Origin: a virus
IMG/VR virus record: IMGVR_UViG_3300014720_000131
Coordinates: 1-29,148 of that record
Length of the DNA stretch: 29,148 nucleotides
Strand: one strand, 5' to 3'
Made by a program: the position numbers and the translations under genes. Shown piece by piece: positions 15,428-29,148 of the stretch; within the stretch, counting starts at the first letter, position 1; every line of letters starts with the position of its first letter. The notes beneath the pieces were generated by a model, which saw nothing but the letters and a program-made list of their open reading frames with translations, was not told the DNA's origin and searched no databases.

Positions 15428-18400
15428 TTACGCTGATCCTGCGGCTTTTGATCCAAAAGATGTGTCTACGTTTGCTTCAGGTCGTGGCTTGACTGCGGCG
15501 GCGGCGGCCTGTGGGTCTTTCGACATGGCTCCATCGAGGATGAAGTTGATTCTGTCACGAATGACAGACTCCTTGCGACCGATGATGACCTTCTCCACTT
15601 CACCGGCATCCATCGTGACAGTAAGGTTGATGGTGACCGCGACTTCTTTACCGTTGACGGTATAGACCTTGGAGGATCCGAGGCCGACGGCGTTGGCGAC
15701 AGAACCAAGTTTTGCAGTCAGGTCGATGGCCTTTATCTGCGACAGGGCCGTATCCATCTGCTGCACCGCTGCGACCATGTCACTGACGGCGAGGAGTGAC
15801 TTCTGGATGCCTGTGTTTAGGACGCTTGTCGACAATTTAGAGTTAGACTCGGCATATGCCGTTATCGATCCCGTCATTATCGACATCTTGTCAAACATCT
15901 CACCTATCTTTGCGGCGCGATCAGGACCTGCGGCTATTAAGGTAGGGTCATGGTAGTTGACCGCAATGAGGGCTGCGGTTATAACCTGTTGCAAATGAGA
16001 CAGATAACCTGTTTTCCCAGAAGACGAGTACATTAAGGGCAGAGCAGGCGCCACCTTCTGCATCTTGTCATCAAACTTTGACAGGTTATTGACTATCTCC
16101 GAAATTGACGAGAACATGGAAGATATGTCGCGTGATCTATCGGGACTCAATTTAACTTTTTCTTGATCCTGATTGCTTACTGTGTTGAGCGCCTTGGTGA
16201 TAATAGGTTCAAGCTTGTCATAACCAGAAAAGATCTTGTCCTTGTCTACTTTTTCCAAGGCAACTTTTGTAGAATCAATGTAACCAGCTATCTCAGATGT
16301 GTTCTTGAATATGGACTGAACCCTCTGCATCTGATCTGTTGCTCGAAGGAGCTGTTCTTCTTTTGTAGAATCCATCAGGTTAAAGTCGACGTCAGACAAC
16401 TTTTTCCTTATATCTTCCATCTTCGCCTTGAGGTTAAAATCTGTGCCCATGACCTTCTTAGAAAGCTCCTCTATCTTCTTAAACTTTTCTTCAGCGTTGT
16501 CGAAAGTTATGTCGCCAACCATTTTAAGATTTCTGTCCTGAGCTTCTTTTAAAGCTTTCTTACGCTGTTCTTCTTGTACGGCTGCTATCTTTGCTTGACC
16601 TTTGGCTTCTTCCTCTTTGACACGTTTTTGATACGCTTCATCAAATTCGTTCAACATAGCTTTGCTGGCATCGGCCGCTAACTGGGCATTTAGTTTGGCG
16701 TTACCTTTGCCATAAAGCATGTCCATGTGCTCGGTCCACCATCCTGTATTTTCTTCAACAACTTTCTGTTGCGCAGCTAGCTGCTCTTCCAACTTTTTCT
16801 TTCTTTCTGCAGCTGTTAAATCATATAATTTGCTATTTGAATCCTCTATCTTTTTGGCTTCTTCCTGAGCTTTCTTATTGGCAGAATCGAATCTGTCGGA
16901 TATAATTGCGTCGATTCCGGCTCCGAAAGCTACTCCAAAAGCACCACCAACTATGCCAACTGTTCCTACAACCAACGCGCCGCCTAACGCAGTAATACCA
17001 GCGGTAACTGCTGCGAAGCCACCAGTTATCGTCGTTCCCAGTGACGTAAGGAATGCGGTGCCGCCAGCAGTACCTGCTGTTGCACCGGCAGCGGCAGCTT
17101 CAATTCCCATCATTGCAGCCAACTTAGGAAAGAATGCGAGGAGACCTGCCTTCACTAGACCCAATGTTAATGGACCAAAAAGTGACTGTACTAAGGCTGG
17201 ACCCCACTTAGCCACCATAAACTTGAATTTTACCGAGTCTGGTACTTGATCCCAGGCCCACTCAAGCATCTCGAGGAGCTTTTTGATTATGGTTTTTCCT
17301 AATTCTTTAAGTGGTTCTTTGAGTTCGACCCACGCGTCACGCAATGCTCCACCTAATGGTGTGAAAACATCGATTGCAAATTTTTTCATTTCCGACATGT
17401 CCGGAACGGCTGCTGAGAGTCCCTTAAGACTCGCAGGTTTCAACCATTCCGTGAATGCAATGATTGCGTCCTTGGTAAAAGGTACAAAGGCGGTTTTTAT
17501 CCAACCTGCCAAATCTTGAGCTCCCTTTGTAACGGCATTCATCATTGCACGTGTGGTAGGACCAGGATCTTCTATCTCTTTTATGAAATCACGGTATAGC
17601 GATTTCAGTTTCTCCCATGTCCAAGCGGCGATTCCCTTGACAATACCGAAAAGTACCTGTCCAAATTGTGAGAAGCCGTTCATTATCTTCTTGCCGGGAC
17701 CTTTACCTGCATCGAAGAAATCAAAGAAGACTTTGTGCAAGTTCTCCATGAAGTCTTCCATCTTTCCGGTGCCACCAGTCTTGAAGACGTCGAATGCCTT
17801 AAGAACACCATCGAACATCTTTCTGAATCGAGCAGGATCGAAGAGCTCGGACAGACCTTGGAAGACGTCTTTGACACCTGGGAATAGGTCAACGAACATT
17901 CGACCTAACTTGTGACCTGCCCAGAAGGCGTCCCTGAAGACCTGACGGATGTTCTCCATCAGTCTGATGAATTCAGGTGATCTCTCGATTCCGTGACTGA
18001 TTCCTTGCAGGAACCTGTCGAGGATGCCGCCCTTGCCCATGTCACCGGACGGTGTCAACCTCTTGATGGAGTCGGCGAGCTCCTTCATGGCGTCTGCCTG
18101 GGTGAGAGTCTTCTTCTCGTTCTTGTCACCCTGACGTTGCATTGCGGCGAAGTCGACGGACATGCCCTTGGCGGAGAGTGAGGCGTTGAGGAGTTCATCT
18201 CCCATGAATCCGGTACTCTTGATGAGTTCCTTCTCAAAGCGGTTCATAGTTGAGACGTCGCGACCTGCGGCTTGGAATGCCTTCTGCAGGATTGCAACCT
18301 GCTGGGCAGGATTCTCGGCAGTCATCAGTTCGGTCGCATCGATGTTGAGATTGAACTGCTCATTGAGTTTGCTGACGCCCTCCACGGTCTGGTCGAACGT

Positions 18401-19441
18401 CTTCGTCGCGTCCATCGTGGCGGTCAATTTGTCGATGGAGACACCCATCTTCTGAGCGAAAGCAGCAGTGACTCCCATCTCCTTGGATGACAAGTGACCG
18501 AAGTGAGCGAGGTCTGCCATGGCCTTCGCCATGTCCTTTGAGAGAACCTTGGCGTTAAGACCGAACGCCTTCGACATGCCGAGGGCCTGCTTCGTCATCT
18601 CATTCTGGACGGTGGCAATGTCCTTGCCCATTCTCATGGCCTGGTAGCCGATCTTCTCCATCTGCTCATCGGTGATTCCGAGTCCACGCTGGTAGTTCAT
18701 GATGGCGACGCCATTCTTCATGATCTCGTCCTGGAAGACGCTGAAGGTGGCACCCATACCCTTGGCAAGGGCTGTGACTGCTTTAACTCTCTCTGCCAAG
18801 TTACCGTAGACGCGATAGGCGTTGACACCTGTCTCGTTCATCTTGTCCATGTTCTTGGCGACATTTATGATGGTCTGAGACGATTCAGACTTGAGGCTGC
18901 CGAACTCCTCTCTGACATCCTCCAAGGCCGCGGCCAATGCGTTGTCGCCGCCTCGGGACGCCATGTTGAAGAGGACGTCCATCATCTTGAAGGGAATTGA
19001 TAGGATGGACCTGCCGACTGACATGAAGCCGTTGACGACTCCACCTATGAAGCTGAGGACACCCTTGGTGATGCCGACGACGCTCTTAAAGATTGAGAAG
19101 AGTCCACCAATGGCAGCGGTCGCCATTCCTGCTGCCTTGACGAAGGGATTCTTGAAGAGGTCGAGGAGACCCTTCGACTCTTTTTGGGTGAGTGTGGTGA
19201 CGTGCCGGACCTGATCAAGCTTCTTGGCGGCCTCGTCGAGAACTTTCGGATCGATCATGTTCGACCCCTTGTCACCGACGTCTTTCATCGTTCCGGCCAT
19301 CTGAGCCATGACGTCACGCATCTGTGTGACGATCTTGAGCTGCTCCTGAAAGACACGAGTTGTATCGGTGGCCGCCGCCTTCAACGCAGCGACCGCCTTG
19401 GCGGTCTCCTCCATCGCCTTAGGGTCCGTAGTGTCAGCCAT
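15428..19441 (-). CDS. Tail tape measure protein
   Basis: This 1337-residue protein is long, helical and Lys/Ala/Gln-rich, with hydrophobic Gly/Ala-rich segments at about residues 100-160 (FVKAAGMATAAIGGLFSIFK) and 770-850 (a Gly/Ala/Thr-rich block), the usual signature of tape measure proteins that set tail length and pass into the cell envelope. A conserved-looking central region (KNGVAIMNYQRGLGITDEQM, IMKNG) and a helical tail are typical. The family's length relationship (about 0.15 nm of tail per residue) would predict a tail near 200 nm, which is an estimate. It follows the gp26-like chaperone and a small membrane-type protein. No strong ribosome site is visible before the ATG, so translation may be coupled. 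Confidence 0.9.
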   Translation of the reverse strand: MADTTDPKAMEETAKAVAALKAAATDTTRVFQEQLKIVTQMRDVMAQMAGTMKDVGDKGSNMIDPKVLDEAAKKLDQVRHVTTLTQKESKGLLDLFKNPFVKAAGMATAAIGGLFSIFKSVVGITKGVLSFIGGVVNGFMSVGRSILSIPFKMMDVLFNMASRGGDNALAAALEDVREEFGSLKSESSQTIINVAKNMDKMNETGVNAYRVYGNLAERVKAVTALAKGMGATFSVFQDEIMKNGVAIMNYQRGLGITDEQMEKIGYQAMRMGKDIATVQNEMTKQALGMSKAFGLNAKVLSKDMAKAMADLAHFGHLSSKEMGVTAAFAQKMGVSIDKLTATMDATKTFDQTVEGVSKLNEQFNLNIDATELMTAENPAQQVAILQKAFQAAGRDVSTMNRFEKELIKSTGFMGDELLNASLSAKGMSVDFAAMQRQGDKNEKKTLTQADAMKELADSIKRLTPSGDMGKGGILDRFLQGISHGIERSPEFIRLMENIRQVFRDAFWAGHKLGRMFVDLFPGVKDVFQGLSELFDPARFRKMFDGVLKAFDVFKTGGTGKMEDFMENLHKVFFDFFDAGKGPGKKIMNGFSQFGQVLFGIVKGIAAWTWEKLKSLYRDFIKEIEDPGPTTRAMMNAVTKGAQDLAGWIKTAFVPFTKDAIIAFTEWLKPASLKGLSAAVPDMSEMKKFAIDVFTPLGGALRDAWVELKEPLKELGKTIIKKLLEMLEWAWDQVPDSVKFKFMVAKWGPALVQSLFGPLTLGLVKAGLLAFFPKLAAMMGIEAAAAGATAGTAGGTAFLTSLGTTITGGFAAVTAGITALGGALVVGTVGIVGGAFGVAFGAGIDAIISDRFDSANKKAQEEAKKIEDSNSKLYDLTAAERKKKLEEQLAAQQKVVEENTGWWTEHMDMLYGKGNAKLNAQLAADASKAMLNEFDEAYQKRVKEEEAKGQAKIAAVQEEQRKKALKEAQDRNLKMVGDITFDNAEEKFKKIEELSKKVMGTDFNLKAKMEDIRKKLSDVDFNLMDSTKEEQLLRATDQMQRVQSIFKNTSEIAGYIDSTKVALEKVDKDKIFSGYDKLEPIITKALNTVSNQDQEKVKLSPDRSRDISSMFSSISEIVNNLSKFDDKMQKVAPALPLMYSSSGKTGYLSHLQQVITAALIAVNYHDPTLIAAGPDRAAKIGEMFDKMSIMTGSITAYAESNSKLSTSVLNTGIQKSLLAVSDMVAAVQQMDTALSQIKAIDLTAKLGSVANAVGLGSSKVYTVNGKEVAVTINLTVTMDAGEVEKVIIGRKESVIRDRINFILDGAMSKDPQAAAAAVKPRPEANVDTSFGSKAAGSA

Positions 19442-19455
19442 CGATCACGATCCGA

Positions 19456-19749
19456 TCAGAGAGGCCACTTGACTCCGAGGACTCTCTCGAACTCAGAGGC
19501 CGACATCTGCTTGACGCGAAGCTTCTCAATGACTGACTGAACAGACGCACCAGGCTTGTTTAGTTCATCCTGAAAACGTCTGGATGCCATCAGGGCATTT
19601 GAGACGGCCGATATCTCATCTTGATTTCCACGAATTTTTGTGTTGACAACCTTGCCAACCAACCATGCACCAAGAGATGCAAGAAGCAACTTGCCTGTCA
19701 AGTTGACGTACAGTCTCTCATTTAAGGCGTCTTCTTTGTCGGACTCCAT
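19456..19749 (-). CDS. Hypothetical small protein with one hydrophobic segment, 97 aa
   Basis: I do not recognise it. TAGGAGACATTC before the ATG is a good ribosome site. One hydrophobic helix lies near residues 17-33 (LTGKLLLASLGAWLVGKVV), and the rest is polar and helical, ending VLGVKWPL. It sits between the chaperone and the tape measure with 14 bases to the latter. A tail-assembly role by context is plausible, but a holin or membrane function cannot be excluded on topology alone. Confidence 0.65.
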   Translation of the reverse strand: MESDKEDALNERLYVNLTGKLLLASLGAWLVGKVVNTKIRGNQDEISAVSNALMASRRFQDELNKPGASVQSVIEKLRVKQMSASEFERVLGVKWPL

Positions 19750-19804: not shown

Positions 19805-20074
19805 TTACGTGAAACGTCGCAATCTCGATGGAGAAGACTCACGTGTGCGTCCCTGCATCGCTCGTGTCTCTGCGGAGTTCTGGTGCACTGCACGACTCTG
19901 CGTCTGACCGTTCTCCGACGTCCTCGACAGTTCCTTACTGATACGCTCGATGAACCACTTCTTGTAGGCGACCGGTAGAAGCCGTGTCTCCGACCAGGTG
20001 AATCCTCCGTAGTATATCAGTAGGAACGATGGTTCGAGGACGAGTGCTTCTCTGTCCTCAGGTCGAAGGCCAAA
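19805..20074 (-). CDS. Start-less +1 extension frame of gp26-like chaperone
   Basis: An 88-codon open frame continues from inside the last codons of the gp26-like gene but in the +1 frame, and ends at a TAA. It has no ATG, GTG or TTG in its usable upstream part. The protein it spells (LRPEDREALVLEPSFLLIYY, then GGFTWSETRLLPVAYKKW and FIERISKEL) is a convincing helical, Trp/Pro-containing chaperone-like sequence, and resembles the short W-LP-RRW-type helices encoded beside gp26-like chaperones and in contractile-injection clusters. The likely product is a fusion of 284 + 88 residues. A sequencing indel is the alternative. Confidence 0.65.
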   Translation of the reverse strand, partial: FGLRPEDREALVLEPSFLLIYYGGFTWSETRLLPVAYKKWFIERISKELSRTSENGQTQSRAVHQNSAETRAMQGRTRESSPSRLRRFT

Positions 20075-20075
20075 G
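20036..20075 (-). promoter_or_regulatory. Candidate +1 frameshift site with downstream hairpin
   Basis: At codon 284 of the gp26-like gene the mRNA reads CUU UGG, so a Leu tRNA in the P site could slip one base onto UUU; CUU-U is also the slip step of the bacterial prfB +1 site. A hairpin with a 6-bp stem (GAGGAC pairing with GUCCUC, 12-base loop; plus-strand 20054-20059 with 20036-20041) begins 13 bases after the CUU, at the zero-frame stop. A strong AGGAGGTGA lies some 26 bases before the slip site, which is too far for the prfB arrangement. Confidence 0.5.
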
Positions 20076-20924
20076 AAAGCTGACGCCGAGGGGCATGTTC
20101 ACCTCCTCTGCATGCCCACAAGAACTACAGGTCGTCTCCTGCTTCATGATGATGCCGGGTTCATTGTCACGCATGTAGTTGCGGAGTGCGAGAGAATCGC
20201 GGGCGGGCATCATCTTAATGAAGTTGGCGATCTTGGAGCGATCCTCGACGCCGTCTACAGACACGATGCTGTAGAGCAGAGACGTCGTCACAGATGAATC
20301 GACTGCAACGCCGAGCTTCTTCTGCCTCTCAGCCATGACAGACATCTCTTCCTCATCGCGGCCCGTCATGAACTTGAATTTGACAGTCTTGCCGCTCATC
20401 GGAAGCTTGAAGTCGAAGAGGTTAGTGCCAGGAATCACTGGCTCGATCTCAAGTCTCTTGATGGGAAGCGCACCGAGGTCGAAGTCGTGAGGCGACTTGA
20501 CGCCACATTCCCTACACTCCAACTCGACTGCGTACTCAGGACCATAGCCTGTGATACGAATGGCGACCATCAGAGCATTCCTGTCGCCAGAGAGAAGGTC
20601 AAGAGGATTGATAGACGTGTCCATGAGACACGACCTAATGAGCTCAGTGACGACAGTTCCCTTCTTGAGAAGAGACCTGGAGGTGAGGATGTCCTCCTCG
20701 CGGGCAGTCATCGCATGGATCTCAACCACTTCATGGTCATAGAGGCTGGACTCCTGAGAATAGACCTTGCCGTTGGAGGGAAGAGGCACGATCTCGTGGG
20801 GTATCTCAAGGCCGAAGTCTGCCTTGGCCTTGTCGGCCTGTGAGATGCGTGGCATTCTCGGATCGACGCCGGCTGGTCCCTGTTTTGCAAATATAGCGTT
20901 CTTCTGCTCTCTGTCGTCTGACAT
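20058..20924 (-). CDS. gp26-like baseplate hub chaperone / tail assembly protein
   Basis: The 288-residue protein resembles the T4 gp26 family, which helps assemble the baseplate hub. It starts with a disordered head (MSDDREQKN...), then a helical body (EIHAMTAREEDILTSRSLLK, LMDTSINPLDLLSGDRNALM). Two Cys-x-x-Cys pairs at 137/140 (LECREC) and 266/269 (CSSCGH) probably bind one zinc ion. The zero-frame end FLWPST is replaced by FLGLRPED... if a +1 shift occurs at codon 284. TAGGAGAGAG before the ATG is a strong ribosome site. It stands at the head of the minus-strand tape-measure operon, transcribed away from the plus-strand cassette. Assignment to gp26 is moderate; the tail chaperone role is supported by neighbour order. 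Confidence 0.75.
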   Translation of the reverse strand: MSDDREQKNAIFAKQGPAGVDPRMPRISQADKAKADFGLEIPHEIVPLPSNGKVYSQESSLYDHEVVEIHAMTAREEDILTSRSLLKKGTVVTELIRSCLMDTSINPLDLLSGDRNALMVAIRITGYGPEYAVELECRECGVKSPHDFDLGALPIKRLEIEPVIPGTNLFDFKLPMSGKTVKFKFMTGRDEEEMSVMAERQKKLGVAVDSSVTTSLLYSIVSVDGVEDRSKIANFIKMMPARDSLALRNYMRDNEPGIIMKQETTCSSCGHAEEVNMPLGVSFLWPST

Positions 20925-21054: not shown

Positions 21055-21450
21055 ATGGCTCTAAATCATCCCGTACAAGGCGAAGGCTACGTCTCAGCGT
21101 ATCAAATCTCGGCAACACCCTACGTCACGTCTTCGACAGTGGCCCTGGGCTCCATCAGAGAGATCGTGTTTCCACAGGTAACGAGGTTCATCACCCTCAA
21201 GAACACGAGCACGTCGACAAACACCATCTCTGTAGGTTTCACGAGACTTGGTCTCACGACAGGCAACTCGAACTACTTCATTCTCAGCGGATCGGAGTCG
21301 TTTTCAGGTGAACTACGAACAGATAGGATCTTCGTGTCAGGAAGCTCTGGGGCGACGAACACGTTCACGCTGCTTGCAGGTCTCACATTCATCCCCTCAC
21401 GAATGCTGACACCCATCACTGGATCGAATGGATTCAGTGGCGTAGGATGA
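21055..21450 (+). CDS. Hypothetical structural-type protein of plus-strand cassette, 131 aa
   Basis: The family is not recognised. The protein is Thr/Ser/Gly-rich with regular hydrophobic alternation (REIVFPQVTRFITLKNTSTS, NTISVGFTRLGLTTGNSNYF) and looks like a small beta-sandwich. It ends ITGSNGFSGVG, a Gly/Phe tail related to the Gly/Phe heads of the next two genes. AAGGTG six bases before the ATG is the ribosome site. It opens the only plus-strand operon of the window. A virion decoration or fibre-associated role is an inference from composition and company. Confidence 0.65.
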   Translation: MALNHPVQGEGYVSAYQISATPYVTSSTVALGSIREIVFPQVTRFITLKNTSTSTNTISVGFTRLGLTTGNSNYFILSGSESFSGELRTDRIFVSGSSGATNTFTLLAGLTFIPSRMLTPITGSNGFSGVG

Positions 21451-21454
21451 GGGC

Positions 21455-21938
21455 ATGGCCGGTGGTAACGGTTTCGATTCAGGATTTTCCAGCGACATAG
21501 GAGGAACCGGATTCAATTAGGGGTTCTCCAAGAGAAGATCAATTGGTGTTGCAGGATTAGCTGGTTGACGATGACTGGTGATGACATGGACGCTGTTCTC
21601 ACGGTCAAGTCTGTGGATCGATAAACGGCGGAGCGCTGACGACAAAAACGTTCGCAACTAACTCCAAGGTGAGGTCGGCGACTAGGACTACGCCATTTAC
21701 GGTCAACACCCTCCTGAGTGAATACGACATCTACACCGTCTATGATACCAATGCAGTCACTCTGACGGCAGGGACTTACAACGTCGTATATCGATCTGTA
21801 TCGACACAAATAGGTGTCGCCCTCATGTGGAAGGCTAACGTACCGATTCCCACGACTACAGACATCTATTCCGACCCTGCAGATGCAGCGAACGCAACTT
21901 ACTATCCCGTCATTGAGGTATTGAGCTCTGCGCCATGA
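21455..21938 (+). pseudogene. Broken paralogue of the Gly/Phe-headed cassette proteins
   Basis: The ATG follows AGGATGAGGGC, a good ribosome site, and encodes MAGGNGFDSGFSSDIGGTGF, which aligns with the head of the downstream PA14 protein. Frame 1 meets TAG at 21518-21520, where the paralogue has Ser, and TGA at 21566-21568. Frame 2 (21571-21624) reads DDMDAVLTVKSVD before a TAA. Frame 3, from at least 21669 to 21938, reads TVNTLLSEYDIYTVYDTN and on to VIEVLSSAP. One-base losses at about 21570 and 21620 would rejoin all three into a beta-rich protein of about 160 residues. It is either a decayed gene, or the product of readthrough, or an assembly error. The frame-3 part has a GTG at 21669 that could start an 89-residue product. 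Confidence 0.65.
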
Positions 21939-22522
21939 GCACTACTCAAGGATTTGGAGGCGGATTCTCTAATTCTCTTGGGGGAGACGGATTTGGAAGC
22001 GGTTTCCAGCGGCCTCGGTCCGTGGCTCCCAACGTAGTCGCCGGCATCAAGAACGACCTGTACACCAGCGGTTACTTCAACGATGACATGGCGTGGTTCG
22101 ACGGCAGAGAACCTGATACCACCACGTACCCGACAGACGTGATACAGGAACCTGGGACAGACGACGGAAGCAACTTCAGCCGCCGCTGGACGGGATACTT
22201 CCGGGCTCCCACGTCGGAGACGTACACCTTCTACACTTTAAGCGATGACTCATCGCTGGTGTGGGTGGGAGACGCGGCGCTGTCGGGCTGGACGATAGAA
22301 AATGCCACTGTGGACAACAGCGGAGTGCACGGTCAAAAAGAGGAATCGGGTGCGGTGGACCTCGTCGCGGGTCAGTACTATCCCATTCAAGTGTTCTTCG
22401 GCGAGATGAGTGGCGGAGACATCCTCACCTTCTCATACTCGACAGGGACGATATCGAAGACCACCGACCTGACAGGACTCATCTACTACAATCCTGACAC
22501 ACCGAACGGCAAGGGATTCTGA
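21935..22522 (+). CDS. PA14-like domain protein with Gly/Phe-rich head, 195 aa
   Basis: Residues 1-25 form a Gly/Phe head (GFGGGFSNSLGGDGFGSGF). From about 40 to 175 the sequence matches the PA14/GLEYA beta-barrel pattern: RWTGYFRAPTSETYTFYTLS, DDSSLVWVGD, a variable loop with GVHGQKEESG, and LVAGQYYPIQVFFGEMSGGD. PA14 domains often bind carbohydrates in adhesins and glycosidases. Asp-Asp pairs at 104-105 may be ligand or calcium contacts. Its ATG overlaps the stop of the broken gene (ATGA). It ends 3 bases from the convergent homing endonuclease gene. A virion-surface, sugar-binding role is the natural inference, but attachment to the particle is not shown. Confidence 0.75.
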   Translation: MSTTQGFGGGFSNSLGGDGFGSGFQRPRSVAPNVVAGIKNDLYTSGYFNDDMAWFDGREPDTTTYPTDVIQEPGTDDGSNFSRRWTGYFRAPTSETYTFYTLSDDSSLVWVGDAALSGWTIENATVDNSGVHGQKEESGAVDLVAGQYYPIQVFFGEMSGGDILTFSYSTGTISKTTDLTGLIYYNPDTPNGKGF

Positions 22523-22525
22523 GAC

Positions 22526-23425
22526 TTAAAAAGAGCAAATAAAAGGATGAGTCTTTTCTGTCCATATTTCAAACAACATACCGATGCTAGTTGAAAAATT
22601 TCTAGCTGCATTAAATTTTGCAATGTTTTTAGGATCCTTTGTGTGACAGCTTGGCTTAATTTCAATTAATGTCTTTTTACCGCTTGCATACTCAACCAAA
22701 CAATCAATGACATAATTCCTAATTTTACCGTCATACTCATATTGAATCCGATGTGGTTCCATTTCGTATGAAATGATATCATCATTGTTCTCAAAGTAGA
22801 GGACGGCATTAAGCTCGAACAAAGACCTGTAATAGACAGCCTTTGTCGATTTCTTTGGATTCTCAAAGTAGCCATGGACTCGAGTTGCCTTTGTCAACAT
22901 TCCGTTTTTAACGCACTCAGCCTGTCTCAAACTTTGTTTTGCCCTGTTGTCTTCATTAGACCAATAGGTCTGCATTTGCTCTTTTATTTTTGCCTTGTGA
23001 TCATCAGACTTTTTCTTGCCGGAGAGAGAGTCTGAGATCTTCTTCGCTCTTTCAGGAGTATTCATCTTCTTCACTATCGAAGCAATTCTTGGATCTTCTT
23101 TCGTCAATCCAGCACACCAGCCTTTTATCTCTCCTCTTTCCCACATTTCTTTGCGAGTCTTAAGGCTCTTTTCTTTGGCCAACTCATTGTTGCCCCAGTT
23201 GTTGTTGATCTTTGCTGCGTGTCCCCATGCGTATTCAGAATATCCTCGTAGAGGACCGTGAAACTTGGTTGCAGTTCCACATCCACATTTGCATGTAGGT
23301 TTGACACCCTTTAGCACAACTTCGATATAAAGATCTTCACTGCTTACATCATGCTTCTTTGAGGCATGAATTCTAAGCGAATTCATATTGTTAATTTCAT
23401 AATCACATTTTGGACACTTAAACAT
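22526..23425 (-). CDS. Free-standing homing endonuclease, zinc finger + NUMOD3-like + PD-(D/E)XK
   Basis: The 299-residue protein has a C2H2-like finger (Cys4, Cys7, His20, His25), a second Cys-rich module of the kind found in phage endonucleases (CKCGCGT...GH, 45-69), and a NUMOD3-like DNA-binding region (about 100-165, ERAKKISDSLSGKKKSDDHK). The C-terminal nuclease domain of PD-(D/E)XK type shows YRSLFE (Glu204), Asp241 (YVIDCLVEY), and Glu255-x-Lys257 (LIEIKPS). Such enzymes cut cognate DNA and spread their own gene. The second Met is chosen as start because GGAGG lies 5-6 bases before it; a first Met four codons earlier overlaps that site. Codon use is more AT-rich than in the tail genes, consistent with transfer. 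It sits between the tail tube gene and the convergent cassette. Confidence 0.82.
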   Translation of the reverse strand: MFKCPKCDYEINNMNSLRIHASKKHDVSSEDLYIEVVLKGVKPTCKCGCGTATKFHGPLRGYSEYAWGHAAKINNNWGNNELAKEKSLKTRKEMWERGEIKGWCAGLTKEDPRIASIVKKMNTPERAKKISDSLSGKKKSDDHKAKIKEQMQTYWSNEDNRAKQSLRQAECVKNGMLTKATRVHGYFENPKKSTKAVYYRSLFELNAVLYFENNDDIISYEMEPHRIQYEYDGKIRNYVIDCLVEYASGKKTLIEIKPSCHTKDPKNIAKFNAARNFSTSIGMLFEIWTEKTHPFICSF

Positions 23426-23430
23426 AAAAA

Positions 23431-23455
23431 CCTCCACAGGTTAATCCCATGGAGG
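23431..23455 (-). promoter_or_regulatory. Hairpin sequestering the homing endonuclease ribosome site
   Basis: On the minus strand CCTCCA (from plus 23455-23450) pairs with TGGAGG (from 23436-23431). Two further GG/CC pairs inside the loop make a stem of eight pairs with a small internal mismatch. The right arm contains the GGAGG ribosome site, 5-6 bases before the chosen ATG. Folding would hide it from ribosomes. T4 homing endonuclease genes such as I-TevI are known to be repressed this way. Confidence 0.65.
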
Positions 23456-23494: not shown

Positions 23495-23986
23495 CTAAAA
23501 CTGAAGCACGCAATTATCAAATCGGAGCGTGAGAGAGATCTCGGTGGGTCCACCGTCTTCGTACGTCACTTCACCAAAGTTGGCCTCAGTGATGAATGCT
23601 CCCTTGATGTCCCAGAGTTCCACCACGGTGCCGACGGGATCGAGGAGCTTCAACTGAATGTCGCGCTTGTAGAAGTCGGCGTAACCTGAGCGACCTGAGA
23701 CAGACTCGAAGTGGGTGCGGACCCACTCCATGACCTGCTGTGCGCCCGAGGGGGCGATTGGATCGTGGAGGGTGACGGCCATCGTCGAGAACGTCGTCTT
23801 GCCGGCGAGGTAGCGACGCGAGTTAATGAAGGGGACTTCAACTTCCTCTGTCTGGATGGTCGGGCGTGCCGTCGTCTTGATGATGTAGGCGTCGATGCCC
23901 TCTACCATTAATATCCAGCGATTTTTACGCTTGGGTTCGAACTTGGCAGGTATCATCGATGTTACGTCTAGTGTCTCTGCGGCCAT
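23495..23986 (-). CDS. Tail tube protein (gp19-like)
   Basis: The 163-residue protein matches the T4 gp19 tail tube family in length (163) and in sequence flavour: RKNRWILMVEGIDAYIIKT, VEVPFINSRRYLAGKTTF, TMAVTLHDPIAPSGAQQVME, then DIQLKLLDPVGTVVELWDIK and ISLTLRFDNCVLQF. Hexameric rings of this protein stack into the inner tube through which DNA and tape measure travel. AGGAG six bases before the ATG is a strong ribosome site, as expected for a highly expressed protein. It follows the sheath and small leader gene and precedes the homing endonuclease. Confidence 0.92.
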   Translation of the reverse strand: MAAETLDVTSMIPAKFEPKRKNRWILMVEGIDAYIIKTTARPTIQTEEVEVPFINSRRYLAGKTTFSTMAVTLHDPIAPSGAQQVMEWVRTHFESVSGRSGYADFYKRDIQLKLLDPVGTVVELWDIKGAFITEANFGEVTYEDGGPTEISLTLRFDNCVLQF

Positions 23987-24427: not shown

Positions 24428-27400
24428 TCACTGTACTTGGGTAAGGTTGTTGGCGACCACGAAGTCGAGCGACACGAACTCGATGGTCTTGGTGGGCTGC
24501 ACGAATATCTTACCGCGTATCGTGTTGTTTTCAATGTCCGTCTGCGTCGTCGTTGACGAGTCGATGACGACACGGAACCTCTCGAGTCCTGCGAGTGCCT
24601 GGATCCTTTGGAGGCGTGGTGTGACGGCCGCCGAGAAGCGGGCGAGGGTGGCCTCACGGTTGGCCTCGAAGAGGATCGTCTGGGCGATCTCGCGGACCTG
24701 ACGACGGATGTCGATGAGGAGGCGGCGAACGTTGACGCGATCGAGGGCCGAAGCGGCCGTCTGCAACGTCTTCTGACCCCACACCACGATGCCACCGCGT
24801 GGGTTGGTGCCGCTGCGGGCGGCGCCTGGGAAGGCGACGATGGGGTTGATGGAGTTGTCGTAGAGCTTGTCCATGTCGGCCTGTGCCAACCTGACGCGGG
24901 GCTCGAGGGCGACCTCGGGGAGAGCTCCACGCGAGAAGCCCGCGGGGGCGAACCATGGGTGACCGACGGAGTCGTTGAGCGCCAAGGCACCGAGGACGAG
25001 GACCGAAGGCGGCACGTTCATGTTGGTTCCCTTGGGGTCACGGTAGAGGACGTCTGGGAAGTAGGCCGCGGCGAAGGACGAGTCGACGGAGCGGTTGACG
25101 AACTGGTTCATCGAGTTGGTGACGGACGGCAGCTGCGAATCGAGCTTCACTTCAGATCCATTCTCGTCGAGCTGCTCGATGTCCATGATGTAAAGGGCGT
25201 CGAAGCGTTCCTCCACAGCGAGGGTCGCTGCGTCTGTGACGATCGGCTCACGGATGCCTGGGATGGCGAGGAGCTGAATGTCGACGTTGGTCGTGTTCTT
25301 CATCACGTCGAGGGCCTTGAGGTATGTACGGACGTTGGGTCCGTTCTGAAGCCCACGGCCTGCGGCAGCGTCCATGTCAGACGACACGGCGTTGTTGTTG
25401 ATCTCGGACTCGTCGGTGTTGAAGACGTTGACGCCGTCGAAACCGCCCTGTATCAGGAAGGTGAACTTGGCGTACTGCTTGTTTCCTGGGATGTCGTCGA
25501 CCTTGAAGGCACGAAGCTTCGTCTCGTCGCCGGAGCTGTCGGCCGCTATCTCGGTGAGGTTCTTGTTGCCGACGCTACCGTTTCTGACGTAGACAGCCTT
25601 GGCCCACTTGGATGGGTCCGCGAGGCCGTTAGATCCGGTGACGACCTGGATGTTCTCGAGTGAGAAGAAGTTGTTGCAGAATGCGTCGGCATCGATGACG
25701 CCCCAGGCTGCAGAAGAAGCCTGACCATCGTTGCTGCCCGTCACAAACTTGGCGGTACCGACTGCGAAGTTCGGGAAGTACTTGGCGAATGCCTTCAGCG
25801 AGTTGTTTGGCAACACGCTGTCGTTCTGCTTGTTGACTGTCGATGGATGCTCGAACTGAACGCCCCAGTAGAAGCGTGAGTTGACCTGCTCCACAGCAGA
25901 CCAACGATCCATGTTGGTGATCTTGCCACGCAAAGGAAGCGGAGGAGTGACGGCCCTGTTCGTTGGGCTGAATGTCGTGGAGGCCATGGCGGCCAACTCG
26001 AACCCACCGAAACCGGCGAGTGGAGCAGATCCGGAGGTGACGAGGTGGTCGATGCCTCTGAAGCCCATTGGGAGCGCCTCGGGATCGACGTATCCGTTCT
26101 CGACGTCTGCATGGACTTCCACTCTGACGTAGTTGGATCTGTTCTCGTAGTTACCCTCGACGACGAGCTTCTGCTCCGATTCCTGACGGTCGAAGTCGAA
26201 GTATGCGTAGACGTCACCGATGACCTTGGCGATGTAGCGATCAGACGTTGGATCGAGGTTGACACCACGATAGATCTCATTGGGGAGGTTCTTCTTGTCC
26301 TGGTCCCTGTCGGTCCAGTCGCGGAGGACGACGTCGAAGGAGCCATACTTGTTGAGTGGATCGGTCGAGACGGTGATGTTCTCGACAGAGACCTTGAAAC
26401 GTGTCGAATTGCCTGCACCGTCGTCGAGGGCATGCAGTCTGAAGAGGTTCTGCGACTTTCCACCGAACTTCTGTGAGACGACCCACGGAGACTTAGCGTG
26501 ACCAAAGCGATCTTCGAATGTCTCGTAGTCAGGTACGGTGGCGCTGCCGACGTGACGACCCAGCGAAGAGGTCACCAAGAACGCAGATGGTTCACCATAG
26601 CTGTTGACGGCAGAACCGCTGGCTGTCGATATGAGACCTGAACCGGTGATGACTGCGAGGGTGGGGTGGACTTCCCAGTCAGCGTAGAGATAGTGGCCGG
26701 CCTCTTGAAGCTTCAAGGGGTCGGTGTTGAACATCTTGCCGAAGTAGTTGTTGGATGTAGGATCGAAGGATGCGACGACGTAGTTGGGATAACGTGGATC
26801 GAGACCCTTGTGACCGTTGAGGTACATCGTGAACTCTTGCTTCGTCTGTCCCGTGCTGGTCGTGAGGACGACGGAACCGAGCGAGGCGCCGCGGACCGAT
26901 GAATGTCCGTCGCGACCGATGGCTGTCGAAGCAGGAACTGCACTGTTAATGCCAGTCACAGACGATGAAAGTGTCAGGAGGACTCCCGAAGGAGCCATGA
27001 CGACACCTCTGACGATGGGGAGTGCTGTCGTCGATCCAGGGGTCACCGAACCAGGTCCTTGAAGACCTGCGTCGCTGAAGTACGTGGAACCTACAGACTC
27101 CGACATAAAACAACCGAGGAAGTAGAGACGACCGAGAGCACCATCGGAAGAAGCGTTCGTGTTCGACGTGATGTAACCGGTAGCAGAGCTGGGCTGCTGC
27201 TCACCGACGACGAATCCTGCCGACGTGACAGAACCGTCTGCGTTACGCTCACGACCGTCGCCGACGCCGAGGACCTTCAAGTAAGTGACAGACTGCGCAT
27301 TACGCAGCCACTCGACGACGGCAAGGGGTCCAAATTTCTTGCCGTCTGTCTGTCCGAACTTAGAGTACCAATCAGACAAGTTACCGACAGTGATTGGGAC

Positions 27401-27529
27401 GAACGCCGGACCCTTTAAAGAGGTTCCCACGATTCCGGCAGGTACGCCGACAGGCTGTTGCGTGGTTGGACCCGAGATGTCAATCTCTCTTGCCGTGACG
27501 CCTGCGCTTCCAAATTTCAGTTGTGCCAT
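24428..27529 (-). CDS. Tail sheath protein, 1033 aa
   Basis: The product is a contractile tail sheath protein. The N-terminus (FGSAGVTAREIDISGPTTQQ, GVPAGIVGTSLKGPAFVPIT, VGNLSDWYSKFGQTDGKKFG) and the C-terminus (LDRVNVRRLLIDIRRQVREI, then RIQALAGLERFRVVIDSSTT and GKIFVQPTKTIEFVSLDFVV) match the gp18/sheath family end domains that form the handshake between subunits. At 1033 residues it is much longer than T4 gp18 (659); the middle holds extra outer domains that would project from the tail surface. GGGAGCAG before the ATG is a strong ribosome site. The C-terminal half is clearly related to the neighbouring second sheath-like gene. Confidence 0.92.
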   Translation of the reverse strand: MAQLKFGSAGVTAREIDISGPTTQQPVGVPAGIVGTSLKGPAFVPITVGNLSDWYSKFGQTDGKKFGPLAVVEWLRNAQSVTYLKVLGVGDGRERNADGSVTSAGFVVGEQQPSSATGYITSNTNASSDGALGRLYFLGCFMSESVGSTYFSDAGLQGPGSVTPGSTTALPIVRGVVMAPSGVLLTLSSSVTGINSAVPASTAIGRDGHSSVRGASLGSVVLTTSTGQTKQEFTMYLNGHKGLDPRYPNYVVASFDPTSNNYFGKMFNTDPLKLQEAGHYLYADWEVHPTLAVITGSGLISTASGSAVNSYGEPSAFLVTSSLGRHVGSATVPDYETFEDRFGHAKSPWVVSQKFGGKSQNLFRLHALDDGAGNSTRFKVSVENITVSTDPLNKYGSFDVVLRDWTDRDQDKKNLPNEIYRGVNLDPTSDRYIAKVIGDVYAYFDFDRQESEQKLVVEGNYENRSNYVRVEVHADVENGYVDPEALPMGFRGIDHLVTSGSAPLAGFGGFELAAMASTTFSPTNRAVTPPLPLRGKITNMDRWSAVEQVNSRFYWGVQFEHPSTVNKQNDSVLPNNSLKAFAKYFPNFAVGTAKFVTGSNDGQASSAAWGVIDADAFCNNFFSLENIQVVTGSNGLADPSKWAKAVYVRNGSVGNKNLTEIAADSSGDETKLRAFKVDDIPGNKQYAKFTFLIQGGFDGVNVFNTDESEINNNAVSSDMDAAAGRGLQNGPNVRTYLKALDVMKNTTNVDIQLLAIPGIREPIVTDAATLAVEERFDALYIMDIEQLDENGSEVKLDSQLPSVTNSMNQFVNRSVDSSFAAAYFPDVLYRDPKGTNMNVPPSVLVLGALALNDSVGHPWFAPAGFSRGALPEVALEPRVRLAQADMDKLYDNSINPIVAFPGAARSGTNPRGGIVVWGQKTLQTAASALDRVNVRRLLIDIRRQVREIAQTILFEANREATLARFSAAVTPRLQRIQALAGLERFRVVIDSSTTTQTDIENNTIRGKIFVQPTKTIEFVSLDFVVANNLTQVQ

Positions 27530-27576: not shown

Positions 27577-29148
27577 TCAGACGAATTGCACGCCGCTATT
27601 TGTGATGATGAAGTCGATAGCGATGTATTCCACCACACGGGTTGGAACCACGACGATTCGACCATTGAGTCTGTTGAGGTCGACGTCTTCCACCGTGTTA
27701 TTCGACTCGTTCATCACGACCTGGAACGCTTCGACACCGGCCTGGGCCTGGATGAGACCGAGCTGGAATGAAGCGTCAGCAACGAATTTGTTACGAACTG
27801 CAGGTGTATTCTGCTCGAATACCAACCTCTGTGCAATTCCAACGATTATTCTCTTGATCTCCAGCATCAACCTGCGTACGTTGACGCGGTCGAGGGCTGA
27901 CTTGTTTATCTGTAGCGTCTTCTGTCCGTAGATCACGTAGCCCAACCTCGGGAAGGAGGCGATGGGATTGATGCGTGATTCGTAGAGACGATCCTTGTCT
28001 GCTCCACCGAGGCGGACCGTGACGTTGGAGACGAAGTCGAGTGCTGCACGATTGAAGCCGGCGGGCGCAAACCAAGGATACGTGACCCTGTCATTGAAGG
28101 CAAGGGCGCCGACGGCCGGGACCGAAGCGGGGACCTTGACACGACGGCGGTTCGTTGCGTCGTCGATGAAGACGTCAGGGTAGTAGACAGCTGCGTAGTT
28201 GTTGTCGATCGAGCGGCCGTCGAACTGAGCGGCCGTCGTCGTGACGTTCGGCTTCGCTGCCGAGTTGTCATAGAGTCTGTTGCCATCGTCGTCGTAGGAT
28301 GGAATGTCCATGACGTACATCGCCAATCCGTAGTCGCGGACCTTTGCCATCGTCTGATCGGTGATGTAAGGTTCACGGATACCCGGGATGGTGAGGATGT
28401 TGTTGTTGGCCTCGAGAGGATTCGTGAGGATGTCGACGGCCGTCAAGTAGGATGCGACGCCGTTGTTGCTCGTCGCTCTGCCCGATGGGTTGGTTGCGAA
28501 ACCGCTGATCGAGTTGCTCGTCGAGGCACCGCCCGATGTGCCTGCATCGAATGAGACCGACTTATCGTTGAGGCGACGTGCGTCTCTGTCAAGGAAGTTG
28601 GTGCCGTCGAAACCACCACACATGAAGTTGGTGAACTTGGCATACGACGAGAACCTATTGAATGTCGAAGCGGGTGCTGTCGAAAGAAGAGACGCGAAGG
28701 TGAGTCTTCTGCGAGAGTTCTCTGTCCACGTGTAATCGGTGGCGTCGAGCGTCGCGTTCCTGATGTACGCTGCTTCCTTCATGTGATCGTTGACAGAGCT
28801 GGTGAGATCCGTCAGCGATGCGTTGAACAGCGCGACCTTCGCAAGAGTGAACTTGTTGTTGTGGGTCGTGTCAGCCTTGGAACCAGAGACGAGGGCGTCG
28901 AGCTTCTCTATTCCGACGAACTTGGTGAAGGACTCGAGGAGAGAGTTCTTCTCGGCGACGACGTTGGGGTTGAGGACATCATTGGATGTCGGATCCGACG
29001 ATGTCGAAGCTCTCTCGAACTTGACGCCCCAGTAGTAGGAGACGTTGGCCTGTTCGGATGGACCTGGTTGACCTGAGAACGTCTGTGAGCCTGTGATCTC
29101 ACCGCGGGTGACCTTGAACCTGAAGGGAACAGGCGGAAGGAACGATCC
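27577..29148 (-). CDS. Second tail sheath-like protein, C-terminal part, runs off right edge
   Basis: The frame is open across the right edge, showing 523 residues up to the stop. The C-terminal domain (SALDRVNVRRLMLEIKRIIV, LIQAQAGVEAFQVVMNESNN, GRIVVVPTRVVEYIAIDFII) and the domain before it (NILTIPGIREPYITDQTMAK, YPWFAPAGFNRAALDFVS) match the neighbouring sheath almost segment by segment, and the visible left part (NVSYYWGVKFERAS) matches the sheath's NSRFYWGVQFEHPS. It is therefore a tandem paralogue of the sheath. It may form a mixed sheath or a specialised terminal ring. The start and N-terminus are outside the window. Confidence 0.88.
   Translation of the reverse strand, partial: GSFLPPVPFRFKVTRGEITGSQTFSGQPGPSEQANVSYYWGVKFERASTSSDPTSNDVLNPNVVAEKNSLLESFTKFVGIEKLDALVSGSKADTTHNNKFTLAKVALFNASLTDLTSSVNDHMKEAAYIRNATLDATDYTWTENSRRRLTFASLLSTAPASTFNRFSSYAKFTNFMCGGFDGTNFLDRDARRLNDKSVSFDAGTSGGASTSNSISGFATNPSGRATSNNGVASYLTAVDILTNPLEANNNILTIPGIREPYITDQTMAKVRDYGLAMYVMDIPSYDDDGNRLYDNSAAKPNVTTTAAQFDGRSIDNNYAAVYYPDVFIDDATNRRRVKVPASVPAVGALAFNDRVTYPWFAPAGFNRAALDFVSNVTVRLGGADKDRLYESRINPIASFPRLGYVIYGQKTLQINKSALDRVNVRRLMLEIKRIIVGIAQRLVFEQNTPAVRNKFVADASFQLGLIQAQAGVEAFQVVMNESNNTVEDVDLNRLNGRIVVVPTRVVEYIAIDFIITNSGVQFV

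Follow-up and report, generated by a model that had tools for sequence, protein, structure and literature searches.

Long-tailed phages other than T4 widely make two forms of a tail assembly chaperone by the frameshift of the G/GT type, and the gpG and gpGT proteins of phage lambda and their role have been reviewed (PMC5009743). The shift in the chaperone gene is by −1 in lambda and in T4-like, Vandenendeviridae and Andersonviridae phages (PMC5009743, PMC12846349), and −1 poly-T signals have been described in T4-like chaperone genes (PMC12846349). Shifting by +1 has been described in the tail of halovirus HSTV-2 and in the capsid and tail of Listeria phage PSA (PMC5009743). Among 2,718 frameshift cases used for training, 350 were forward, nearly all in actinophage chaperone genes (PMC10885494). 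The T4 proteins gp26 and gp51 are hub assembly chaperones, gp51 being absent from the particle (PMC3004832). As cited in PMC12846349 and PMC10885494, Vladimirov, Gautam and Davidson (2022; Virology 566:9–15) identified gp26 and gp51 as T4-like tail assembly chaperones; in later work, as cited in PMC10885494, two genes account for the short and long forms of T4. A short gene together with a fused longer gene is found in some phages (PMC10885494).

Prior work covers the two chaperone forms, their production by frameshifting, −1 sites in T4-like phages and +1 shifts in other systems. What appears to be new is a deeply conserved +1 site across a very large T4-related group. In the literature that we covered, to which Vladimirov et al. 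(2022) did not belong, we found no +1 site reported for the gp26/gp51 family.

The window is the whole stretch of DNA that was analysed, 29,148 nt forming positions 1 to 29,148 of IMG/VR record IMGVR_UViG_3300014720_000131. The zero-frame gene lies on the minus strand at 20058–20924 and encodes a gp26-like protein of 288 residues, predicted from its family matches and a structural model to be a short tail assembly chaperone (TAC-N). The gene ends with the codons AGC TTT CTT TGG CCT TCG ACC TGA, with the TGA stop at 20060–20058. The candidate shift site, TTT CTT TGG CCT (20067–20078, minus strand), was recognized by codon invariance in relatives and consists of TTT at 20078–20076, CTT at 20075–20073, TGG at 20072–20070 and CCT at 20069–20067. 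When one base is skipped after CTT, reading resumes at GGC (20071–20069) and continues for 88 codons to 19808, followed by TAA at 19807–19805. This +1-frame extension (19805–20071, minus strand; 88 residues plus stop), which would complete a predicted long form, was assigned from its +1 homologues and from a dN far below dS; the fused product has 372 residues. No stop interrupts the +1 frame between a point nine codons upstream of the shift and the TAA. On recheck, the coordinates and frame of the start-less 88-codon frame that a preliminary description had placed after the gp26-like gene were right, and the lengths of 288 and 372 residues claimed for the two products agreed with the reading frames.

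The zero-frame protein scores 56.1 bits with PF12322 (T4 base plate protein; E = 5e-15), above the curated cut-off of 24.5, and also matches phrog_150 (E = 1.9e-19). Both families are also matched by T4 gp26 and gp51, which are paralogues (BLASTP E = 2e-6); gp26 covers profile positions 14–235 and gp51 positions 13–280, the latter having 45 more profile positions. In phage Konradin, gp26/gp51 are annotated as tape measure protein assembly chaperones. The T4 pair and the window share the PF12322/phrog_150 family and, as predicted for the window, a short form accompanied by a long form with a C-terminal tail, but the short and long forms are two separate genes in T4, whereas the window has one gene with a +1 site. 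A profile built from the fused protein matched gp51 (E = 7e-5) collinearly to its C-terminus, and a profile of the extension alone gave a weaker match (E = 0.02). On iteration, the extension profile matched the gp51 C-termini of JSE and PSTRCR (E about 1e-4) and T4 gp51 (E = 3e-3) and did not match gp26. In S-PM2, P-SSM2 and HTVC008M, phrog_150 is matched in two frames, with the second part in −1; this second part spans phrog_150 position 227 or earlier to 278 or later (227–281 for the cyanophage extension), and the −1 site of S-PM2 and P-SSM2 is T TTT TTC. The extension profile of the window's lineage matched the cyanophage −1 extensions (E about 5e-4) and the extensions of SP-15, GXN1, BF and LR756511 (E from 1e-4 to 7e-4), and these matches outscored all 200 shuffles; the extension is tied less strongly to T4 gp51 directly. 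No match was returned by tblastn with the extension alone against annotated phages, and the window's extension by itself matched neither a Pfam nor a PHROGs family.

The zero-frame protein and the extension were modelled separately. The AlphaFold model of the zero-frame protein has a pLDDT of 87, and its residues 40–136 best matched two structures, 3fgx (Z = 6.0, r.m.s.d. 3.8, 82 residues) and HK97 2ob9 (Z = 5.9, r.m.s.d. 7.8, 90 residues), a Z of about 6 being middling and below the level that would prove a shared fold by itself. The next match had a Z of 3.1. Both 3fgx and 2ob9 are named as chaperones in PMC9603447. Foldseek returned nothing significant for the core against the PDB, and the tail assembly chaperones surfaced with the second aligner only. 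The model of the extension is helical (pLDDT 74.6), and no structural match to it was found.

Searching IMG/VR with the zero-frame protein gave 20 loci, and 18 of these cover the junction. The preliminary description had proposed comparing the CTT-T and the overlap of the two frames in related genomes, and this comparison came out in its favour: all 18 carry TTT CTT TGG CCT together with the +1 extension of the window, which ends in SPSRLRRFT or a close variant, an agreement far greater than chance would give. Neither a single uninterrupted frame nor a separate start for the second part, which had been named as signs to the contrary, was seen in the window's lineage. Profile searches gave 195 further, partly overlapping loci. 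Of 198 distinct loci, among them annotated phages, 183 have the extension in +1 and ten in −1, and in five no extension was recognised, with +1 homologues reaching down to about 25–40% identity; a +1 site in a gp26-like gene, earlier called unusual, is rather the rule in this large group. Because the relatives share ancestry, these locus counts are not counts of independent events. Among the ten loci scored automatically as −1, L214 has the +1 arrangement at its junction and breaks frame further downstream, and the distant relatives L028 and L034 have a separate overlapping start.

The most frequent +1 sites are TTT TTT TGG CCT (92 loci), TTT CTT TGG CCT (30, with L048), TTT TTT TAC CCT (22) and TTC TTT TGG CCT (six); more distant groups have TTT CGT or TTT CAC at the junction. 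Isolates with the +1 arrangement include Flavobacterium phage immuto, Microcystis phage Mel-JY01, Bacillus phage SP-15, Listeria phage LIS04 and Streptococcus phage GXN1, and a similar arrangement was judged by eye in BRock and RM378. Extensions of RM378, BRock and Vi01 were assigned by position and eye only, profile recognition of those of RM378, Vi01, BRock and XacN1 being absent or weak. Conserved-looking extensions that are not annotated follow the gp26-like gene in −1 in Salmonella phage Vi01 (L244/L253) and in +1 in Listeria phage LIS04 (L033). None of the GenBank records examined joins both frames. In an SP-15-like clade (L220, L223, L224, L225, L229 and L230) the junction reads TTA TTT/TTC AAT CCC AGT with the extension in +1, and there the slip may occur at CCC.A instead of TTT.

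Codon use at the site was compared in 88 distinct loci. The slip codon is CTT in 29 and TTT in 59 with no others, TGG occupies the A site of the zero frame in all 88, and the codon after TGG is CCT in 86; in the same genes, CTT makes up about 29% of Leu codons and TTT about 59% of Phe codons. A codon alignment of 26 homologues contains 97 columns in which the amino acid is invariant and has more than one codon. Just three of these columns hold a single codon in all 26 sequences, namely TTT, CTT and CCT of the shift site, and codon identity averages 0.54 elsewhere. The extension has dN values of 0.03–0.26 against dS values of 0.7–3 where these could be estimated; judged by these ratios, it is under purifying selection. 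YTT TGG occurs once elsewhere in the 8,839 codons of the window against about two expected, which is not significant avoidance.

The +1 frameshift of prfB (RF2) uses a P-site CUU that re-pairs with UUU (CUU.U). The window resembles it in having a candidate slip codon CUU followed by U (CTT TGG, 20075–20070), with CTT or TTT in all 88 loci. It differs from RF2 in having UGG rather than UGA in the A site, in having no adjacent Shine–Dalgarno-like stimulator and in a predicted outcome of two products rather than autoregulation. The +1 shifts of PSA, HSTV-2 and actinophages are like that predicted for the window in affecting a phage structural or tail-assembly gene, but they use different slip codons (a proline codon in PSA) and lie in genes that are not known as members of the gp26/gp51 family. 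Lambda G/GT, T4-like phages, S-PM2 and P-SSM2 share with the window one gene before that of the tape measure and, as predicted for the window, a shift near its 3′ end that gives a short and a C-terminally extended product, and the T4-like −1 cases also share T-rich shift codons. Unlike these −1 systems, the window would use a +1 slip of a single tRNA on YUU.U and has no X XXY YYZ heptamer: its extension is in +1 and the site reads TTT CTT TGG, so that a −1 slippery heptamer is not what is found here.

The position of the slip was placed with the help of the six relatives that read TTC TTT TGG. In these the first codon is unable to re-pair at +1 and UUU.U is able to, which points to a slip at the codon before TGG (CUU or UUU to UUU); with tRNA-Leu, CUU.U to UUU would be an equivalent step. 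The CUU-to-UUU slippage at CUU-UGG put forward in the preliminary description is supported by these six loci and by the conservation of the site. A shift one codon earlier, in which tRNA-Phe moves from UUU to UUC and the following UUU is read as Phe, is a sub-variant that overlaps the explanation preferred here. TTT C does precede the site in the window, and slippage on UUU.C fits the distant relatives BRock (TTT CGC), GXN1 (TTC TTT CGT) and LR756508 (TTT CTA). Slippage on UUU.C of the preceding codon was our first idea, and it was ruled out for the window's lineage by the six TTC TTT TGG loci, in which that codon has no +1 re-pairing, whereas CTT and TTT are the only codons seen before TGG; as an account of this site, the earlier slip is improbable. 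L111 (TTT TTC TGG) and L178 (TTC TTC TGG), which carry the extension in −1, bear on whether the site is used. UUC.U is unable to re-pair at +1, and both sites are able to slip by −1 on U. Both loci are nested in +1 groups on a FastTree tree from which the last 12 residues were left out and whose long branches are unsure, and they represent apparent independent switches of the direction of frameshifting. If the site were not in use, it would be difficult to account for an extension whose frame switches along with the slip codon. From these comparisons, the best-supported reading is that the site would serve +1 slippage of a P-site CUU to UUU with UGG in the A site.

It is very unlikely that the second frame is instead an independent small gene that has a start of its own and is translationally coupled to the first. 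Arrangements of this kind do occur in the family: gp51 of S-PM2 is annotated as a separate 57-residue gene directly after gp26, and in Serratia phage BF and LR756511 the second frame starts at an overlapping TAATG. An ATG is present somewhere before a conserved YYGG motif in 62 of 88 relatives, and many relatives, the window excepted, have one at extension codon 11 or at 17–18. Only two of the 88, however, combine an ATG with a Shine–Dalgarno-like run, and the conserved residues G, L, E and F precede the points at which an ATG usually occurs. A separate gene also does not account for a frame that is almost always +1 and site codons that are frozen, and the window has no ATG, GTG or TTG in the +1 frame between the upstream stop and the YYGG motif.

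The same frame would be reached by a −2 ribosomal slip or by transcriptional slippage on the T run. Many relatives have seven consecutive T, and by our reasoning a −2 move could bring the Leu-tRNA on CUU into pairing with UUC. Re-pairing at −2 is not possible at the TTC TTT TGG loci, though, where it would meet UCU, and TTTCTTTGG and TTCTTTTGG contain no long homopolymer on which a polymerase could slip; slippage of either kind has just as slender a chance as a separate gene. That a sequencing error or a disrupting mutation split one reading frame has the change of frame itself and nothing else in its favour and can practically be dismissed, the same split with the same codons being present in more than 180 separate contigs and in isolate genomes.

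Taken together, the conserved site, the +1 extension, the direction, the protein family and the fold match make it highly probable that the locus encodes a short and a long tail assembly chaperone from one gene by programmed +1 frameshifting. From these comparisons we infer that shifting takes place, its rate, the tRNA that slips and the roles of both products. Most ribosomes would read the zero frame to the TGA and release the 288-residue short form (TAC-N). In a minority, peptidyl-tRNA-Leu on CUU, awaiting the tRNA for the single-tRNA codon UGG, would slip by +1 and re-pair with UUU; these ribosomes would read GGC and then the +1 frame to give the 372-residue long form (TAC-NC). By analogy with lambda gpG and gpGT, many short copies and a few long ones would coat the tape measure protein, the helical tail of the long form would recruit tail tube subunits, and both forms would leave before the virion is complete.

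Possible stimulators were sought on both sides of the site. The 6-bp downstream hairpin of the preliminary description is present in the window, but its role as a signal did not hold up: no relative keeps all six pairs (2–5 of 6 are kept), and as a feature of the window only it was dropped as a stimulator. The 3′ flank folds no better than shuffled sequences (z = −0.85), and RNAalifold detected almost no covariation around the site, with one pair showing a two-sided change. No Shine–Dalgarno-like run adjoins the site in 15 aligned relatives. A GGAGGUG run about 20 nt upstream was rejected as a stimulator, being too far away for the RF2 type and, judged by eye, incompletely conserved. The +1 site of the window has a sense codon as its A-site codon and lacks an obvious stimulator.

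For the wider family, it is likely that most T4-related tail chaperones outside T4's own group make their long form by +1 slippage at YUU.U or UUU.C followed by a conserved UGG, UAC or CGU, and that the direction is switchable: at least two lineages within +1 clades would have turned to −1 through UUC, cyanophage-like members use −1 and T4 would have exchanged shifting for two genes. If so, the same codon pair serves +1 shifting, −1 shifting or no shift in one protein family. The direction in the wider T4-related family is mostly opposite to the textbook one. With members that use +1, −1, a separate start or two genes, the family would offer a natural series in which the steps between decoding modes can be tested. 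The conserved shift has been missed by gene callers or annotated as stray small genes, GenBank isolates included, and its recognition corrects tail gene annotation in many environmental phages.

The chaperone gene lies between the tail tube and probable tape measure genes, with one gene of 97 residues intervening, and the order is the same in relatives. This small gene (19456–19749, minus strand) was found by tblastn in most of the 32 relative loci searched and has no convincing Pfam family. The probable tape measure protein (15428–19441, minus strand; 1337 residues) was assigned from its size, position, hydrophobic stretches near the N-terminus and conserved order in relatives, and phage immuto has an annotated tail tape measure protein at the equivalent place. 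Upstream of the chaperone gene are a gp19-like tail tube protein (23495–23986, minus strand; 163 residues; PF06841, E = 8e-4, below the curated cut-off), whose homologues in relatives are 58–96% identical and also lie upstream, and a tail sheath protein (24428–27529, minus strand; 1033 residues) with matches to PF17482 (E = 2e-5) and PF04984 (E = 0.002), both below the curated cut-offs. The upstream position of the sheath gene is conserved in relatives. A second tail-sheath-like gene adjoins it on the minus strand (27577–29148) and runs off the window.

Three further reading frames lie between the tube and chaperone genes. The first (22526–23437, minus strand) encodes a protein of 303 residues whose N-terminus resembles a zinc finger and which contains a TnsA-like endonuclease domain (PF08722, E = 5e-14). 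Near-full-length homologues (63–69% identity) were found in only L011, L016 and L040 among the relatives searched, and for this reason it is probably a mobile or homing-type endonuclease gene. The second (21935–22522, plus strand, opposite to the tail genes) encodes 195 residues with an adhesion-type GLEYA/PA14 domain (E = 1.5e-21) and was not found at the same place in the relatives searched. The third (21055–21450, plus strand) closely precedes the chaperone gene in the opposite orientation; it encodes 131 residues, has no Pfam family and is 50–89% identical in 17 relatives.
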